A stretch of DNA of 64,000 bases from Dethiosulfovibrio peptidovorans DSM 11002 (GTDB lineage: Bacteria; Synergistota; Synergistia; Synergistales; Dethiosulfovibrionaceae): contig NZ_ABTR02000001.1 of assembly GCF_000172975.1 (NCBI RefSeq), positions 1,526,501 to 1,590,500 on the forward strand, given 5' to 3'. This document shows positions 10,940 through 21,305 of this stretch, one piece after another (position 1 is the stretch's first letter; every line of letters begins with the position of its first letter). The position numbers were made by a program, and so were the translations under genes. The notes beneath the pieces are model-generated. The model was not told the DNA's origin. It ran no database searches and saw nothing but the letters and a program-made list of their open reading frames with translations.

Positions 10940-12058
10940 CTAGCGACCCAGGACTTCCAGACCTCTTAGGAGAATATTCTGCTTCAGTCTTATGGCGTTG
11001 GCGGGACACATCTCATGGCAGCAGTAGCATCTTATGCACTTTTCATAGTCGAAGACCAGGCGGCGGTCTCTCATGGTTATGGCGTCGGCGGGGCATATCT
11101 CGACGCATCTACCGCATAGGATACAGCGTTTTCGGTTCTGCTCCGGCCTGGCCGCCAGGAGCTCTCTTCCGAAACGGTCCATCCAGGAGGGCAGAAGCCT
11201 CAGTGAGTCGGGTGGAGGAAGTTCGACCCTCTCGAAAGTCGTCTCTGGTATGGTATCTCCTTTTATCCGTATATTTTTCGGGACCATCCCGGCCGTCTCG
11301 GCCGCTTTTCTCAGGGGGAAAGCCGATCGATTCAAGGACATTAGGTCCGCCGTTGTCAGATCCATGGCCAGAGCATCGTCCGTGGCCACCACAGTGCCGA
11401 ACCGTCTCGGAGATCCGTTGGACGGACCTCTGCCCTCCATGCCTACGACTCCGTCCATTACGGTCAAACAGGGACGCAATGTCATCCATATCTCCAACAG
11501 CAGTCGGGCGAAGTCCTCTCTGTCAAGTCCGACTCTATAGTGCCAGGCCGCCTTTCTCTGGGCCACCACCGTTCCGAACAGGTTTTTTACCCCCATGGTC
11601 AAGGTCATCTGACAGTGGGTCTTTAGCTTAGGAAGGTTTATTATTTTGTCCGATTCCAATGCCAGGGCGGAGATTTCAAGTCCCCTGAAACGATCGTCTC
11701 TTTTGCCCGGAACAGGCCGGGATTCGTCTAGAGGGACGACGGGAACCCCTAATATCCTGCCCACCTGGGCTATTCCGGTTTTCTCCGCTACCTTGGAGAA
11801 CTTCTCTATGCCGGGGCTGTCGGCTATGGTCGGCTTGCCTCCGCAGTCAAGAGTCATTTCCGTCACAGCTCGTACCATGGCCGGATGTGTGGTTACGGCC
11901 CTGTCCGGCGAGTAGGCTCCCAGCATATTTGGCTTTATAAGCACCGAGTCGCCGGAGGAGACGAATCGCTCCATCCCCCCCAGATCGTCTATCGTTCGAG
12001 CTATTACGTCCTTTACGCCTTCGTAGGAACTGCATTTTCTGAAAGATACGATGGTCAT
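10940..12058 (-). CDS. DUF362 protein with two 4Fe-4S clusters
   Basis: A 372-residue protein. Residues 1 to about 290 form a DUF362 domain (VLIKPNMLGAYSPDRAVTTHPAMV, KTHCQMTLTMGVKNLFG). The C-terminus is a bacterial ferredoxin module with two canonical motifs, CILCGRCVEICP and CIRCYCCHEMCP. The family is common in strict anaerobes and presumed to do electron transfer or cluster-dependent chemistry, but its substrate is not established. ATG at 12058 follows GGGAGAGGG. The gene points away from the folK fusion with a 70-bp intergenic region. Confidence 0.88.
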   Translation of the reverse strand: MTIVSFRKCSSYEGVKDVIARTIDDLGGMERFVSSGDSVLIKPNMLGAYSPDRAVTTHPAMVRAVTEMTLDCGGKPTIADSPGIEKFSKVAEKTGIAQVGRILGVPVVPLDESRPVPGKRDDRFRGLEISALALESDKIINLPKLKTHCQMTLTMGVKNLFGTVVAQRKAAWHYRVGLDREDFARLLLEIWMTLRPCLTVMDGVVGMEGRGPSNGSPRRFGTVVATDDALAMDLTTADLMSLNRSAFPLRKAAETAGMVPKNIRIKGDTIPETTFERVELPPPDSLRLLPSWMDRFGRELLAARPEQNRKRCILCGRCVEICPADAITMRDRRLVFDYEKCIRCYCCHEMCPANAIRLKQNILLRGLEVLGR

Positions 12059-12074
12059 CAGTCCCTCTCCCTTC

Positions 12075-12083
12075 TGTTACAAT
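12075..12083 (+). promoter_or_regulatory. extended -10 promoter of folK-folE2
   Basis: TG-T-TACAAT lies 45 bp before the folK-folE2 start without a good -35, as expected for an extended -10 promoter. An overlapping GATAAT on the opposite strand may serve the divergent DUF362 gene. Confidence 0.4.
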
Positions 12084-12128
12084 TATCTCCAACGTAAGTA
12101 TCAGCGATTACGACTAGGAGGTCCAAAG

Positions 12129-13586
12129 ATGAATCGCAAACACAGGGTTTTTCTGGCCCTGGGAGCCAATCTGGGCGACCGTCAGGGCAATATACTACAG
12201 GCACTTCAATATCTTCAGGGCAAGGTGGAGGTCGTGGCGGTTTCGTCGTTCTACGAGACCGAGCCGGTCGGATATGAGGATCAACCTCTCTTTCTTAACT
12301 GTGCCTGCGAGATTCTAACGGACCTGTCTCCGATGGAGGTCCTTCATCTGGCAAAATGGATCGAACAGAGGATGGGCAGGACCGTCAATTTCAGGAACGG
12401 CCCGAGACCTATAGACGTCGACCTGATAATGTACGACGACCTGGTCCTGGGAGATGACAAGCTGACCGTCCCCCATCCCAGGATGCAGGAGAGGGCCTTC
12501 GTGCTGGTTCCTCTCGCCGAGATAGCCCCTGGGCTGGTCCATCCTGTCTTAGGGCAGACCGTCTCCGATCTAAGGGATTTGGTGGACGCCAAAGGGGTCG
12601 CCAAGGTGGAGAGATCCCTTCGATTTTCCCTCGATAGAGATGTGCAGAAAGGCGTCCCCGAGGTTCCTCTGTTTTTGGGGCGGGTCGGTGTGACCGGCCT
12701 GGAGAGGATAATACGCCTCGAGACGGAGGGCAAGATTTCCCTTTTCTACGCGACCATGGATCTGTTTGTGGATCTCGACGGTGCCAGGGCAGGCGTCCAT
12801 ATGTCTCGTTTCAACGAGATATTGGAGCAGGCAGCGGAGGACGCCGCCGGTTCCGTCGCTCCCGACATAGAGACAATGGCCGAGCGTCTGGCCTCGTCTG
12901 TGATGGAGCGGCAGGAGGCTCTTAGATCGGAGGTCCGGATAAAGGCCCATTTCCCCCTGAAAAAGCACGCTCCCATATCGGGGAAGACGACCCAGGAGAT
13001 CTACAATTTTATAGGGATATCCGCCTGCGACGGGAACGTATGTCGAACGATATCAGGGGTGGAGGTGGACGGTTTGACCGTCTGTCCCTGTGCCCAGGAC
13101 ATGGTCCGCGCCCATTCCAAGGGATTGTTGATATCCCAGGGATACGGCGAGGAAGAGGCGGAGCGTATCGTAGACGTATTGCCCCTGGCGTCCCACAACC
13201 AGAGGGGACGGGCCACGTTAATGATCGGCGGTGCGGGTACCATAAGGGCGGAGAACCTGGTTCACCTGGCCGAGGCTTCCATGAGTTCCGAGATATACGA
13301 GCTTCTCAAAAGACCGGACGAGTTTTTCGTGGTCAACAAGGCTCACAGCAATCCTCGATTCGTTGAGGACGTCGTGAGGGAGGTGCTACGAAACGTGGTG
13401 GAGGTCTCTCCCGACCTTCCCGACGGGGTTTTCGTCCTCGCCAGGCAGGAGAATTTCGAGAGCATCCACCGACACAACGCCTTCGCGGAGAGAGCCGCCC
13501 TCCTTGGCGACCTGAGAAGGGAGATGGAGGGGCTTCGTCCCGGCAGGCCGATCACCTTGGAGGGCTGGCTCTTCGGAGATATCTGA
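12129..13586 (+). CDS. folK-folE2: fusion of HPPK (FolK) and GTP cyclohydrolase IB (FolE2)
   Basis: A 485-residue two-domain folate enzyme. Residues 1 to about 165 are 6-hydroxymethyl-dihydropterin pyrophosphokinase, with the start LALGANLGDRQGN and the magnesium motif GPRPIDVDLIMY (D96, D98). Residues 175-485 are GTP cyclohydrolase IB: the catalytic region LTVCPCAQDMVRAHS (C319) and LPLASHNQRGRATL (H356) are intact. The fusion joins the first step (GTP to dihydroneopterin triphosphate) with the pyrophosphorylation of hydroxymethylpterin. ATG at 12129 follows AGGAGG; an apparent longer frame from 12051 has no ribosome site. It is convergent with folP and the PTPS gene. Confidence 0.93.
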   Translation: MNRKHRVFLALGANLGDRQGNILQALQYLQGKVEVVAVSSFYETEPVGYEDQPLFLNCACEILTDLSPMEVLHLAKWIEQRMGRTVNFRNGPRPIDVDLIMYDDLVLGDDKLTVPHPRMQERAFVLVPLAEIAPGLVHPVLGQTVSDLRDLVDAKGVAKVERSLRFSLDRDVQKGVPEVPLFLGRVGVTGLERIIRLETEGKISLFYATMDLFVDLDGARAGVHMSRFNEILEQAAEDAAGSVAPDIETMAERLASSVMERQEALRSEVRIKAHFPLKKHAPISGKTTQEIYNFIGISACDGNVCRTISGVEVDGLTVCPCAQDMVRAHSKGLLISQGYGEEEAERIVDVLPLASHNQRGRATLMIGGAGTIRAENLVHLAEASMSSEIYELLKRPDEFFVVNKAHSNPRFVEDVVREVLRNVVEVSPDLPDGVFVLARQENFESIHRHNAFAERAALLGDLRREMEGLRPGRPITLEGWLFGDI

Positions 13587-16630: not shown

Positions 16631-17884
16631 ATGTCTTTTGTAAAGATAAGGGCGTTTTCTGCCCTTGGATCGAGGAATTACAGGCTTTTTTTCACAGGGC
16701 AGGGCATATCCTTGACGGGCTTTTGGATTCAAAGGGTCGCTATGGGTTGGTTGGTATATCGTCTGACCGACTCGGCTTTTCTGTTAGGAGCCGTGGATTT
16801 CGCCAGTCAGATCCCGTTGCTATTCCTTTCAACCTTTGCGGGGGTCTTGATGGAACGCTGGGATCTGAGGCGCCTGATGGTGATCTGCCAGACTTTATGC
16901 ATGGTTCACGCCGGGGTTCTTGCCGGACTGACCCTTACCGGAGCCGTCAATTACATACATGTTTTGGCGTTAGGGGTTTTGTTGGGAGTAGTGAACGCTT
17001 TCGAGCTCCCGGCCCGTCAGACCTTCATCATTCAGCTCGTGGATCGGCCTGAGGACCTGGGAAACGCCGTGGCGCTGAACTCCTCTCTGTTCAACGTAGC
17101 CCGACTGATAGGTCCATCGGTAGCGGGGTTTTGCATAGCCGCCTTCGGCGAGGGGATATGTTTCGGTATAAACAGCGCCTGTTATCTGGCCACCTTGGCG
17201 GCTTTGATGGCTCTTCGGTTGCGTCCTCGGGAAGACTCTCGTGAGCGGGAACCCTTTTGGGAGGGGTTCTTGTCAGGCATCAGTTACGTCCGTTCCTTTC
17301 TTCCCATAAGGGACGTTCTGATATCCCTGGCTCTACTGAGCTTCGCCGGTTTGCCCTATCTGGTGCTCTTGCCGATATTCGCCAAGGAGATCCTGCACGG
17401 TGGTCCAACTCTACTCGGTCTGTTGACCGGTGCGTCAGGTCTCGGTGCCCTTGCCGGATCGATAAGGCTGGCTGTTAGGAAGACCCCGGTGGGCCTCATG
17501 AGGGTTATGGCCATCTCTCTCTCCTTTTTCGGAGTCTCCTTGGCCGCTTTCTCCCTCTCTCTATGGACTCCTATGTCGATATTGCTCATAGTCGCAGTGG
17601 GGTACGGCATGGTGTCGGTCTTGGTTGCGGGCAACACGGTGATACAGACCTTGGTGGACGAGGACAAAAGGAGCCGGGTGATGTCCCTCTACGTGGTTTC
17701 CCTGACGGGAACCGCCCCTATAGGCAGTCTAGTGGCAGGGACGGTGGCCTCTTTTATCGGAGCCAGGGCAACCTTGGCCATCGGAGGGGGGGGCTGTCTC
17801 CTGATAGGGTTGGTCCTGCTCAAGAGGGGCGACCTCTTATGGAGCCTGGCCGAGCCGATATACAGGAAAAAGGGGCTGATTTGA
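16631..17884 (+). CDS. MFS transporter (DHA3/EntS-like exporter)
   Basis: A 417-residue twelve-helix transporter. SRNYRLFFTGQGISLTG at the start and RLIGPSVAGFCIAAFG mid-protein, together with MERWDLRRLM (loop 2-3 motif A variant), are typical of the DHA3 drug or siderophore exporters. ATG at 16631 has GGGGGAG five bases upstream; an ORF extension to 16514 adds a hydrophobic but unsupported 39 residues. Substrate unknown. The gene ends ten bases before the promoter of the trp leader. Confidence 0.85.
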   Translation: MSFVKIRAFSALGSRNYRLFFTGQGISLTGFWIQRVAMGWLVYRLTDSAFLLGAVDFASQIPLLFLSTFAGVLMERWDLRRLMVICQTLCMVHAGVLAGLTLTGAVNYIHVLALGVLLGVVNAFELPARQTFIIQLVDRPEDLGNAVALNSSLFNVARLIGPSVAGFCIAAFGEGICFGINSACYLATLAALMALRLRPREDSREREPFWEGFLSGISYVRSFLPIRDVLISLALLSFAGLPYLVLLPIFAKEILHGGPTLLGLLTGASGLGALAGSIRLAVRKTPVGLMRVMAISLSFFGVSLAAFSLSLWTPMSILLIVAVGYGMVSVLVAGNTVIQTLVDEDKRSRVMSLYVVSLTGTAPIGSLVAGTVASFIGARATLAIGGGGCLLIGLVLLKRGDLLWSLAEPIYRKKGLI

Positions 17885-17894
17885 CTTTCTGCCG

Positions 17895-17923
17895 TTGACT
17901 GGAGGCCTGAAGAGGTGTATTAT
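17895..17923 (+). promoter_or_regulatory. strong promoter of the trpB leader
   Basis: TTGACT, a 17-bp spacer and TATTAT form a near-consensus promoter. Transcription would start near 17930, 27 bp before the leader peptide ATG and about 225 bp before trpB. Confidence 0.8.
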
Positions 17924-17956
17924 GCTTCAAAATTCATCGAGAGGCCGTGGAAGGCT

Positions 17957-18013
17957 ATGTACTCTAAACCCATGACTGACAATTCGATGCTTTGCTGGTG
18001 GTGGTGGACCTAG
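17957..18013 (+). CDS. trpL: trp leader peptide with four tandem Trp codons
   Basis: An 18-residue peptide reading MYSKPMTDNSMLCWWWWT, then TAG. Four consecutive TGG codons (17996-18007) lie directly before the first arm of an attenuator. Translation may begin at 17957 (GGAAGG just upstream) or at in-frame ATGs 17972 or 17987. Known trp leaders use the same design: a ribosome stalled for lack of charged tRNA-Trp selects the antiterminated structure. Too short for routine gene calling, but codon content, promoter and downstream pairings all agree. Confidence 0.88.
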   Translation: MYSKPMTDNSMLCWWWWT

Positions 18014-18112
18014 GTCCACCGCGTCTCAGGCTGTGCTTTCAGCCGCGGTGGCAGATGCTGCCGCGGCTTTTCATTTAAGGGCCGCGCCCCTCTGATAGGG
18101 GGAGCGGCCCTT
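18003..18112 (+). promoter_or_regulatory. six-segment trp attenuator with two consecutive terminators
   Basis: Segments read from the sequence: 1 GGTGGACC (18003-18010) pairs with GGTCCACC (18013-18020). Segment 2 CCACCGCG (18016-18023) pairs perfectly with segment 3 CGCGGTGG (18044-18051). AGCCGCGG (18041-18048) pairs with segment 4 CCGCGGCT (18061-18068), followed by TTT. Segment 5 (18077-18090) pairs with segment 6 (18098-18112), followed by TCTTTATT. Segment 4 with its T tract (18062-18071) can instead pair with 18077-18086, ten pairs including two G-U. So 2:3 plus 4:5 is the read-through state and 1:2, 3:4, 5:6 the terminated one. Confidence 0.8.
18041..18076 (+). terminator. first trp attenuator terminator (3:4)
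   Basis: AGCCGCGG and CCGCGGCT form an eight-bp GC-rich stem around a 12-base loop that can itself fold (CAG/CTG). TTTTCATTT follows. It competes with the 2:3 pairing. Confidence 0.75.
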
Positions 18113-18120
18113 TCTTTATT
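18077..18120 (+). terminator. second trp leader terminator (5:6)
   Basis: AAGGGCCGC pairs with GCGGCCCTT, the stem extends through CCCC/GGGG, and TTTCTTTATT follows. It lies 43 bp before trpB and would block expression unless segment 5 is captured by segment 4. Confidence 0.78.
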
Positions 18121-18155
18121 CGGGTCCAAATTTTAGAGATGTGGAGGAGATTTAA

Positions 18156-19349
18156 ATGACCGTCACGACCGTCGATAACGCTGCAAAAAAAGGATACTAT
18201 GGAGCTTTTGGTGGAAGATTTGTCCCGGAATCGTTGGAGAGGCCCTTGGAGGAGCTTTCCGAGGCTTTCCTCGAAGCCGCGTCGGACCCGGAGTTCGAGA
18301 GGGAATATATGCGTCTCATGAGAGAGTACGTAGGGCGTCCCTCCGCGATTACCGAGTGCCTTAATCTCGGAGATAAACTTGGAGGAGGCCGTCTATTCCT
18401 GAAAAGGGAGGACCTGAATCATACCGGAGCCCACAAGATAAACAACGCCATAGGACAGGCTCTGTTGGCCAAAAGGATGGGGAAGACCCGCCTCATAGCC
18501 GAGACCGGTGCGGGTATGCACGGAACCGCCTCCGCCACTGTGGCGGCCCTGATGGGGATGGAATGCGTGGTCTATATGGGAGCGGTGGACGTGGCACGCC
18601 AGGCTCCCAACGTCAGCAGAATGAAGCTTCTAGGGGCTAAGGTGGTGTCGGTGGCCCAGGGACAGGGAGTCCTGAAAGACGCGGTGGACGCCGCCCTTAA
18701 CGCCTACGTCGAGGATCCCGAGACTTTCTACCTTCTCGGATCGGCGGTGGGGCCCGCTCCCTATCCTTCCATGGTCCGTCACTTTCAGAGCATCATAGGC
18801 AAAGAGGCCCGACAGCAGATACTGGACAGAGAGGATCGTCTACCCGACGAGATAGTGGCCTGTGTCGGAGGGGGCAGCAACGCCATCGGTCTTTTTTCCG
18901 GTTTTATCGACGATGCCTCTGTGGCTATAACAGGAGTGGAGCCAGCCGGTAAAGGTCTGGAGACGGGAGAGCACGCAGCCACCCTCGTAGTAGGATCTCC
19001 GGGCATGATACACGGTTTCAAGAGCTACGTCCTCACCGACGAAAACGGAGATCCCGCTCCGGTGTATTCTATCTCCGCCGGATTGGACTACCCCGGAGTG
19101 GGGCCGGAGCACTCCTACCTCAAGGACAGCGGCAGGGCCACCTATGTGGCAGTCACAGATGAGGAGGCACTCGATGCCTTCCATCTTCTCTGTCGAACCG
19201 AGGGGATAATACCGGCTCTCGAAAGCTCCCACGCCCTGGCGTATGCGGTAAAGAGGCTACCCCGGATGGGTTCCGACGAGATCCTCCTGGTCAACCTGTC
19301 CGGCCGGGGAGATAAGGACATGGACCAGATCATGGCTCTCGAAAAATAG
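18156..19349 (+). CDS. trpB: tryptophan synthase beta subunit
   Basis: A 397-residue TrpB1-type PLP enzyme. The Schiff-base lysine is K94 in [25 protein letters not shown] and the phosphate-binding [10 protein letters not shown] are present, and the N-terminal [13 protein letters not shown] is of the TrpA-interacting class. It condenses indole with serine to give tryptophan. GGAGGAG precedes the ATG. No trpA or other trp gene is adjacent: nudC follows on the opposite strand after one base. The gene sits alone behind the Trp-codon attenuator, so it may serve indole salvage or act with a distant trpA. Confidence 0.95.
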
Positions 19350-19350
19350 A

Positions 19351-20082
19351 TCAGGAGTTTCTCTTGATAAAATCGTCTATCAATCTTCGTGATACGCTGA
19401 CGCTTCCGGGGATCTCGGGAAGATCCTCGGAAGCGAACCAGTCAGCGCTGTCTATCTCCTTGCCGTCGACCTCTATCTCGCCGGAGGCCCATCGGGCCTG
19501 AAATGCCACCATGAGAGACCGGGGAAACGGCCAGGATTGGCTGTCGAAATAACGGATGTCCGATATCTCTATTCCGACCTCCTCCCGGATCTCTCTCCTC
19601 AAAGCCTCCTCAAGGCTTTCTCCCAGGTCCACGAAGCCCGCCAGAACGCTGTACCTGCCGGATGGAAAGGCCGAATTATGGGCCAAGAGGATGCGGTTTT
19701 CTCTCTCTACCGCCACTATCACGGCAGGAGAGATTATAGGGTATATCCTGTAACCGCATTTCGGACAGGCCCGGCCGTTGTCCTCTCCGTCCTCCATGGG
19801 GGTACCGCATCTGCCGCAGAACCGGCTGTTTTTACGCCAATCCATCTCTGCGTAGAGACGGTTGGCCTTTGCGAAGGAGATTTCCCCTGTTAGCTCCCAC
19901 AGGGCCCTTCTAGGTACGGCCCTCCACCCTTTCAAGTCGGCATCTTCGGGGAGCTCTCTCCACGTGCCCACGCCATCGACCTCTCCCGTCGATATATAAT
20001 CAAGTTCCCTAGGTAACTCAATCCCGTCCATCTCCGGGATAAGCACCTCTTCGCCTCGAAATACGAAACTGTTCTCCTTCAA
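19351..20082 (-). CDS. nudC: NAD-capped RNA / NADH pyrophosphatase
   Basis: A 243-residue Nudix hydrolase. A zinc ribbon (FCGRCGTPM and ACPKCGYRIYP) precedes the Nudix box GFVDLGESLEEALRREIREEVG, and SQSWPFPRSLM is the NudC-specific motif downstream. It cleaves NADH and the NAD cap of RNAs. The start is TTG (20082), preceded by a purine-rich GGGGATGG. Monocistronic, convergent with trpB. Confidence 0.93.
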   Translation of the reverse strand: MKENSFVFRGEEVLIPEMDGIELPRELDYISTGEVDGVGTWRELPEDADLKGWRAVPRRALWELTGEISFAKANRLYAEMDWRKNSRFCGRCGTPMEDGEDNGRACPKCGYRIYPIISPAVIVAVERENRILLAHNSAFPSGRYSVLAGFVDLGESLEEALRREIREEVGIEISDIRYFDSQSWPFPRSLMVAFQARWASGEIEVDGKEIDSADWFASEDLPEIPGSVSVSRRLIDDFIKRNS

Positions 20083-20170
20083 TTTAGTCCATCCCCTTAG
20101 CGTCGTAGTGTTTTCTCTTAAAAGTCTATCGTCGATTTCGTCTTTTTGGTACTACAAGATCCCTGTTTCG

Positions 20171-20179
20171 TGCTATCAT
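20171..20179 (+). promoter_or_regulatory. extended -10 promoter of the ABC importer operon
   Basis: TGC-TATCAT lies about 38 bp before the first gene. No clear -35 is seen, as is usual for TGn-extended promoters. Confidence 0.4.
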
Positions 20180-20216
20180 TGTAGGCTGATATATATTTCG
20201 AAGGGAGATGTACCGC

Positions 20217-21305
20217 TTGAGAAGAACTGTAGCCTTTTTCATTGCCTTGTTTTCCATCCTTTGGGCTGTAACCTCTTACGCTGCCACTGTGACGGACGGG
20301 TTGGGTAGAGATGTGGAGGTCCCCGACGAGGTAGACAGGATAATCTGTTCCGGATCGGGATGTCTCAGACTGGCCACATATCTTCGACTGGAGGACAAAG
20401 TCGTTGCGGTTGACAGCATAGAGAGGAGAACTGAGACTTTCGATGCCAGGGCCTACGCCATTGCCAGACCGGAGTACAAGAGCCTGCCGTTGTTCGGCGA
20501 GTTCAGAGGCAACGATAGTCCGGAGCTGATTCTCTCTCTGGATCCCGCCCCTCAGGTGATATTCAAGACCGGCTGCACCGGCGACGAAGCCGAAAGTCTC
20601 CAGTCCAAGACCGGTATTCCCGTCGTCGCCCTGGACTACGGAAATCTGGCAGGAAAAAGGAGTAGACTGTACGAGTCAATCTCCATAATGGGGCAGGTGA
20701 CCGATGTCTCCGACAGGGCGAAGGAAGTGGTGAATTTCTTCGAAGCCGCCATAGAAGACCTTAAAACAAGGACCGCCGATGCCTCCATAGAGGGTTCCGC
20801 CTACGTGGGAGGGATAGCCTTCAGAGGTCCTCACGGACTGTTGTCCACAGAGCCTAATTATCCTCCCTTCCTGTTTTCCGGAGTGGCGAACGTGGCGGCA
20901 GAGGGAAAGGGGGCCAAGGCTAGACATGCGGTGGTCTCCAAGGAGGCCCTGTTGAAATGGGATCCGAAATTCATCTTCGTCGACCTGTCCACCATAACGG
21001 CGGTCGGAGGGGGAGCTTTGAAGGAGCTGGCCGACGATCCTCTGTGGAGAGGTCTCTCCGCCGTGGAGGAAGGCAATATCTACGGGGTATTACCCTATAA
21101 CTGGTACACCCAAAACTTTGGCAATATTTTGGCGAATGCGTATTTCGTGGGTTCGTTGCTCTTTCCCGATCGATTCGAGGACGTGGATCCCGGAGATAAG
21201 GCCGACGAGATATACGCTTTTCTCGTAGGGAAACCCGTCTTTTCCAAGTTAAACGATTGCTTTAAAGGCAAGGTATTCCGTAAGCTTGTGCCGGGAGAGA
21301 TCTAG
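20217..21305 (+). CDS. ABC transporter substrate-binding protein, iron-complex/corrinoid type
   Basis: A 362-residue exported protein. The signal peptide (RRTVAFFIALFSILWAVTSYA) is followed by VTDGLGRDVEVPDEVDRII, the usual opening of the BtuF/FhuD (PF01497) fold. No lipobox is seen, so it is probably free in the periplasm. TTG at 20217 is chosen because AAGGGAG lies nine bases upstream; the ATG at 20208 directly abuts that site. Permease and ATPase genes follow at once. The cargo (ferric chelate, haem or cobalamin) is not decided by sequence. Confidence 0.87.
   Translation: MRRTVAFFIALFSILWAVTSYAATVTDGLGRDVEVPDEVDRIICSGSGCLRLATYLRLEDKVVAVDSIERRTETFDARAYAIARPEYKSLPLFGEFRGNDSPELILSLDPAPQVIFKTGCTGDEAESLQSKTGIPVVALDYGNLAGKRSRLYESISIMGQVTDVSDRAKEVVNFFEAAIEDLKTRTADASIEGSAYVGGIAFRGPHGLLSTEPNYPPFLFSGVANVAAEGKGAKARHAVVSKEALLKWDPKFIFVDLSTITAVGGGALKELADDPLWRGLSAVEEGNIYGVLPYNWYTQNFGNILANAYFVGSLLFPDRFEDVDPGDKADEIYAFLVGKPVFSKLNDCFKGKVFRKLVPGEI

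Follow-up and report, generated by a model that had tools for sequence, protein, structure and literature searches.

The leader region upstream of a stand-alone trpB gene in Dethiosulfovibrio peptidovorans DSM 11002 is probably a ribosome-mediated trp attenuator in which two serial intrinsic terminators (termed T1 and T2) are coupled by a relay helix, 4:5, formed between the 3′ arm of T1 and the 5′ arm of T2. What is new here is a tandem trp attenuator present phylum-wide in Synergistota, with the relay as its probable mode of action; an attenuator having two terminators under one ribosome is already known (ermK, see below). The window, i.e. the whole stretch of DNA that was analyzed, is 64,000 nt in length (G000:C1:1526501-1590500) and belongs to a genome of three contigs with 2,576,359 bases in total. 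Features of the leader region, all on the + strand, are as follows.

17895–17923, +: sigma-70-type promoter, TTGACT, 17 nt, TATTAT (10 of 12 consensus positions)
17957–18013, +: leader peptide open reading frame of 18 codons, MYSKPMTDNSMLCWWWWT followed by a stop codon; Trp-rich leaders are kept in relatives
17996–18007, +: four tandem Trp codons (the putative sensor), read from the leader open reading frame
18001–18009, +: arm 1, pairs with 18014–18022 (no-ribosome fold)
18014–18033, +: arm 2, with 18016–18022 paired to 18045–18051 and 18029–18033 to 18040–18044 (folding)
18040–18052, +: arm 3, forms the 2:3 antiterminator or alternatively the T1 5′ arm (folding)
18041–18068, +: T1 hairpin (3:4), −23.4 kcal/mol; tail TTTCATTTA (hairpin followed by TTTCATTT)
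18062–18071, +: arm 4 with U tract, CGCGGCTTTT, 5′ partner in the proposed relay helix 4:5 (10 contiguous pairs)
18077–18086, +: arm 5, AAGGGCCGCG, 3′ partner in 4:5 and base of the T2 5′ arm
18077–18112, +: T2 hairpin (5:6), −28.5 kcal/mol; tail TCTTTATTC
18156–19349, +: stand-alone trpB, the regulated gene (TIGR00263, 583.9 bits vs a cut-off of 392)

The anatomy is that of a ribosome-mediated trp attenuator: an open reading frame with Trp codons, mutually exclusive 2:3 and 3:4 pairings, and a position ahead of trpB. The leader stop codon lies in the loop, CTAG, of the arm 1:arm 2 hairpin in the no-ribosome fold. T2 begins 8 nt from the end of the T1 hairpin. Pairing of arm 4 with arm 5 extends over 10 of 10 positions, two of them G-U. 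The promoter, the 18-residue leader with its four Trp codons, the classical arrangement followed by a second terminator before trpB, and the ten-position pairing had all been pointed out in the first-pass annotation and are confirmed. The elements and their mutual exclusivity are evident from sequence and conservation, and 4:5 would be expected to open T2 in the cell.

Scanning of both strands shows 17895–17923 to be the sole consensus promoter within 17000–20500, and hence there is no promoter-like site between T1 and T2 on either strand of that segment; a transcription start at this point had been named beforehand as incompatible with joint control. The region between T1 and T2 in the window also displays no second leader open reading frame and no RNA of an Rfam family. 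Rfam scans of the window and of related loci gave no family match, and the window leader gave no Rfam T-box match that would indicate a T-box core. The upstream neighbor of the stand-alone trpB is an MFS-type transporter gene that ends at 17884, and a Nudix-type gene is found downstream on the opposite strand (both named by eye).

There are 53 hairpin-plus-T candidates in the 64-kb window, and T1 and T2 are the only pair less than 54 nt apart. The 4:5 energy is −15.6 kcal/mol; since 9.6% of the unrelated terminator pairs from the window reach this value, a single sequence is no proof of a relay. The ten pairs do not settle the matter by themselves, and the case for the relay rests on phylum-wide conservation.

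In the proposed mechanism, with ample charged tRNA-Trp a ribosome at the leader stop codon would cover arm 2, so that 3:4 would form and most polymerases would halt at T1. For polymerases that escape T1, arm 4 would be held in 3:4, which would leave arm 5 free to form 5:6, and a halt at T2 would follow. With Trp scarce, the ribosome would stall at the Trp codons, 2:3 would form and arm 4 would be released. The released arm and its U tract may then capture arm 5 as it emerges, ahead of arm 6. Formation of 4:5 would disable T2 too, and trpB would be transcribed. It appears moderately likely that such a relay operates in Synergistota on both the trp operon and the stand-alone trpB, with one stalling event and five mutually exclusive helices that switch both terminators, repression being multiplied and the starvation response left open.

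Computed folds are consistent with this scheme. When the ribosome is stalled on the Trp codons (RNA before 18013 covered), the minimum-energy fold at 3′ ends 18092 and 18100, where arm 6 has yet to emerge, consists of exactly 2:3 together with 4:5; a ribosome positioned on the stop codon, or no ribosome at all, makes 3:4 dominant. Once arm 6 has emerged, equilibrium favors 3:4 plus 5:6, and therefore both steps would be kinetic, as in classical attenuators. At that stage, the energies computed for the window differ little between the 4:5 state (−27.6 kcal/mol) and 5:6 (−28.7 kcal/mol). The computed barriers, which are heuristic direct-path values that vary with the start state, are 13.9 kcal/mol for 4:5 to 5:6 and 11.9 kcal/mol for the classical 2:3 to 3:4 transition in the window, with group means of 10.8 and 12.6 (trpB) and 14.2 and 13.3 (trpE). 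Barriers from a start state that lacks the upper T2 hairpin (3.0 kcal/mol) were replaced by those from a fairer start state.

DNA upstream of trpB relatives was examined in 188 Synergistota genomes. Of 49 trpB-class leaders, 44 combine Trp codons with T1 and T2; they represent 28 genus-level groups. At least one hairpin had to be positioned by hand in three of these leaders (G018, G025 and G047). The remaining five of the 49 (G052, G056, G146, G155 and G179) display T1 only. The trpE leaders with Trp codons have two terminators in 33 of 33 readable cases, a set that spans 18 groups and two orders, includes the source genome, and has several hairpin ends positioned by hand. In another order (family f11), the trpE leaders of three genomes show 10–12 pairs in 4:5. 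The spacing of T1 to T2 in tandem trp leaders is 7–45 nt, and all 77 tandem leaders have a 2:3 pairing of 8–18 pairs. In the source genome, trpE has its own Trp leader, MKRILSGQNWWWQTY followed by a stop codon, tandem terminators, and a 4:5 helix of GCCUCUC/GAGAGGC (L103, about 1166–1365; near G000:C1 1070900). An exact-pattern scan of genome contigs gave matches only in Acetomicrobium and one Phycisphaerae. Because T2 recurs in trpB and trpE leaders phylum-wide, the second terminator is, as judged by this recurrence, part of the attenuator, and it has probably been so since early in Synergistota.

The five T1-only trpB loci (L082 in G052, L078 in G056, L076 in G146, L080 in G155, and L075 in G179) come from three genera and retain the Trp leader; they are natural single-terminator controls. 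Nine trpE genes of other lineages have T-box-like leaders without Trp codons (L104–L107 and L110–L114). L104, the sole one of these tested, matches RF00230 with E = 1.9e-17, which is under the gathering score, and it is therefore missed at the Rfam default threshold. An uneven internal loop, GGAGGCGGATCC...GGATTCNCTTC, is strongly conserved in the T1 hairpins of trpE leaders (e.g. L116, L126); the 2:3 pairing accounts for part of this conservation, but not for the inner GATCC/GGATT. In the source genome, the pheA-like gene has no leader directly upstream, and hisG sits within an operon.

T2 might instead be a constitutive fail-safe, with T1 alone regulated, T2 cutting leakage by a fixed factor in every state, and the likeness of the arms reflecting general terminator composition; this is rather unlikely. 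Generic C-rich and G-rich arms do pair in any case. At least four 4:5 pairs are found in 90% of trpB swaps, and the pair counts of native arms are no different from those of swapped arms. These counts are uninformative, because any C-rich 3′ arm partly pairs with any G-rich 5′ arm, and were dropped as evidence. In addition, when each helix is taken by itself, 5:6 is the stronger of the two in 27 of 28 trpB groups and in 18 of 18 trpE groups. Pairing energy, however, distinguishes native from swapped arms. When arms 4 and 5 of trpB leaders were exchanged between genera (5000 permutations), the mean 4:5 energy was −13.3 ± 0.5 kcal/mol vs −15.7 kcal/mol for native arms, a value that none of the 5000 permutations reached. 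After removal of composition and length as row and column effects in an additive model, the trpB residual is negative in 23 of 28 groups, and with 8-nt flanks the remaining 4:5 excess amounts to −2.4 kcal/mol (p about 2e-5; this and the following p values are approximate, as the groups are genera and not phylogenetically independent contrasts). Some genera (g9, g25, g28, g29 and g33) show no 4:5 excess in the trpB residual test, and the excess over swaps is weaker in trpE (p = 0.05 and 0.03). Furthermore, if T2 were strong and unregulated, most transcription would be stopped even in starvation, yet T2 has been retained throughout the phylum on both trp units. After arm 6 has emerged, the 4:5 state also lies near the energy of 5:6, and the barrier between them resembles that of the classical switch.

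A quite improbable origin of the likeness is that T2 is a copy of T1, or that recombination maintains the resemblance between the hairpins, 4:5 being a functionless by-product. The 3:6 pairing, of equal composition, serves as a control, since copying predicts that its complementarity equals that of 4:5. In 35 of 46 groups (trpB and trpE combined, approximate p = 0.0018), 4:5 is the stronger of the two. The 3:6 pairing is likewise above its own between-genus swaps, as would result from transitivity or from homogenized hairpins, and a GGCCC core is often common to T1 and T2. When arms are exchanged between trpB and trpE within a genome, 4:5 becomes weaker in 11 of 12 groups, and 3:6 behaves in the same way. 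A fit of arm 5 to arm 4 and not to arm 3, seen in some genomes, argues against copying: the G027 trpE leader has GGTC in arm 4 and GACC in arm 5, with GGCC still present in arm 3. Pairing of 4:5 is also found with divergent letters, i.e. CCCTTTTTCTTTA/TAAAGAAAAAGGG (G072), CTCTTTTGTTTT/AAAACGAAAGAG (G151) and GCGGCCCTTTT/AAAAGGGCCGC (G062 trpE). Compensatory conservation of arms 4 and 5, which the first-pass annotation looked for in relatives, holds in part: pairing energy is above both swaps and 3:6, but base-pair covariation is no better than in 3:6 (among sister pairs, 4:5 is kept in 41% of changed cells in trpB and 48% in trpE, vs 43% and 46% for 3:6). Lastly, T2 may obey another signal (a protein, an RNA or pausing), the leader integrating two inputs in the manner of the mgtCBR or metE leaders. 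Tandem regulated sites with differing signals are known, but this is highly improbable here, as the region between T1 and T2 shows no second leader open reading frame, promoter or known RNA family. Occurrence of the same tandem ahead of both trp units also suggests a single signal.

Helix 4:5 is thus exclusive with both terminators and is conserved beyond composition by pairing energy. The relay is supported as the best reading of the tandem leader because the tandem is found on two trp units, 4:5 exceeds both swaps and 3:6, the stalled fold contains 4:5, and there is no internal promoter. The suggestion that one stalling event could control two serial terminators is accordingly retained.

The Synergistota leaders resemble enterobacterial trpL in having a Trp-codon leader whose stop codon lies next to arm 2, mutually exclusive 1:2, 2:3 and 3:4 pairings, and an intrinsic terminator ahead of a trp gene. 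They differ from trpL in the addition of a second terminator 7–45 nt further on, whose arm 5 is complementary to arm 4, and in having no Rfam family match. For ermK of Bacillus licheniformis (erm(D) class), the original 1991 paper reportedly describes two exclusive conformations. The ermK leader contains two adjacent Rho-independent terminators, according to a later account (PMC4335068). ermK is like the Synergistota leaders in having one ribosome stalled on a leader peptide and two adjacent terminators; it differs in that stalling is by a macrolide and the gene encodes a methylase, whereas in Synergistota the signal would be amino acid starvation and the tandem is found phylum-wide on two biosynthetic units. 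The Salmonella mgtCBR leader has two attenuation steps, but these involve two open reading frames, two signals sensed independently, and stem-loops unlike intrinsic terminators (PMC3641672). Tandem terminators, one with a possible antiterminator, are present in the rimP leader of some Gammaproteobacteria; unlike the trp relay, this leader concerns another gene and another signal, and no leader peptide is described in the passage cited (PMC2965389). No description of tandem terminators in trp leaders, or of regulation or attenuation of trp genes in Synergistota, was found in the open-licence literature. The earlier statement that no such case had been described is therefore too broad in view of the two adjacent terminators of ermK under one stalled ribosome.

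To our knowledge, the trp attenuator, a textbook RNA switch, is invariably drawn with a single terminator. If the relay reading is true, a deep-branching phylum has equipped two trp units with a version containing two terminators, which would mean that attenuators can be cascaded: leakage past the first stop would be intercepted by another stop under the same decision. The 77 natural variants and the five single-terminator leaders form a set for studying the on/off ratio of serial terminators, and the tandem trp leader may provide a design for low-leak synthetic switches.

A second trpB is located at G000:C1:1075547-1076695, about 4.3 kb past the trpE match, and has 58% identity to the stand-alone trpB. 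The source genome thus has two trpB copies, one alone with its own attenuator and the other within the trp operon. Many Synergistota carry the stand-alone class, which may have a role in indole salvage. Elsewhere in the window, positions 12051–13586 contain one open reading frame that resembles (by eye) a fusion between an HPPK (FolK)-like sequence and a FolE2-type GTP cyclohydrolase-like sequence.
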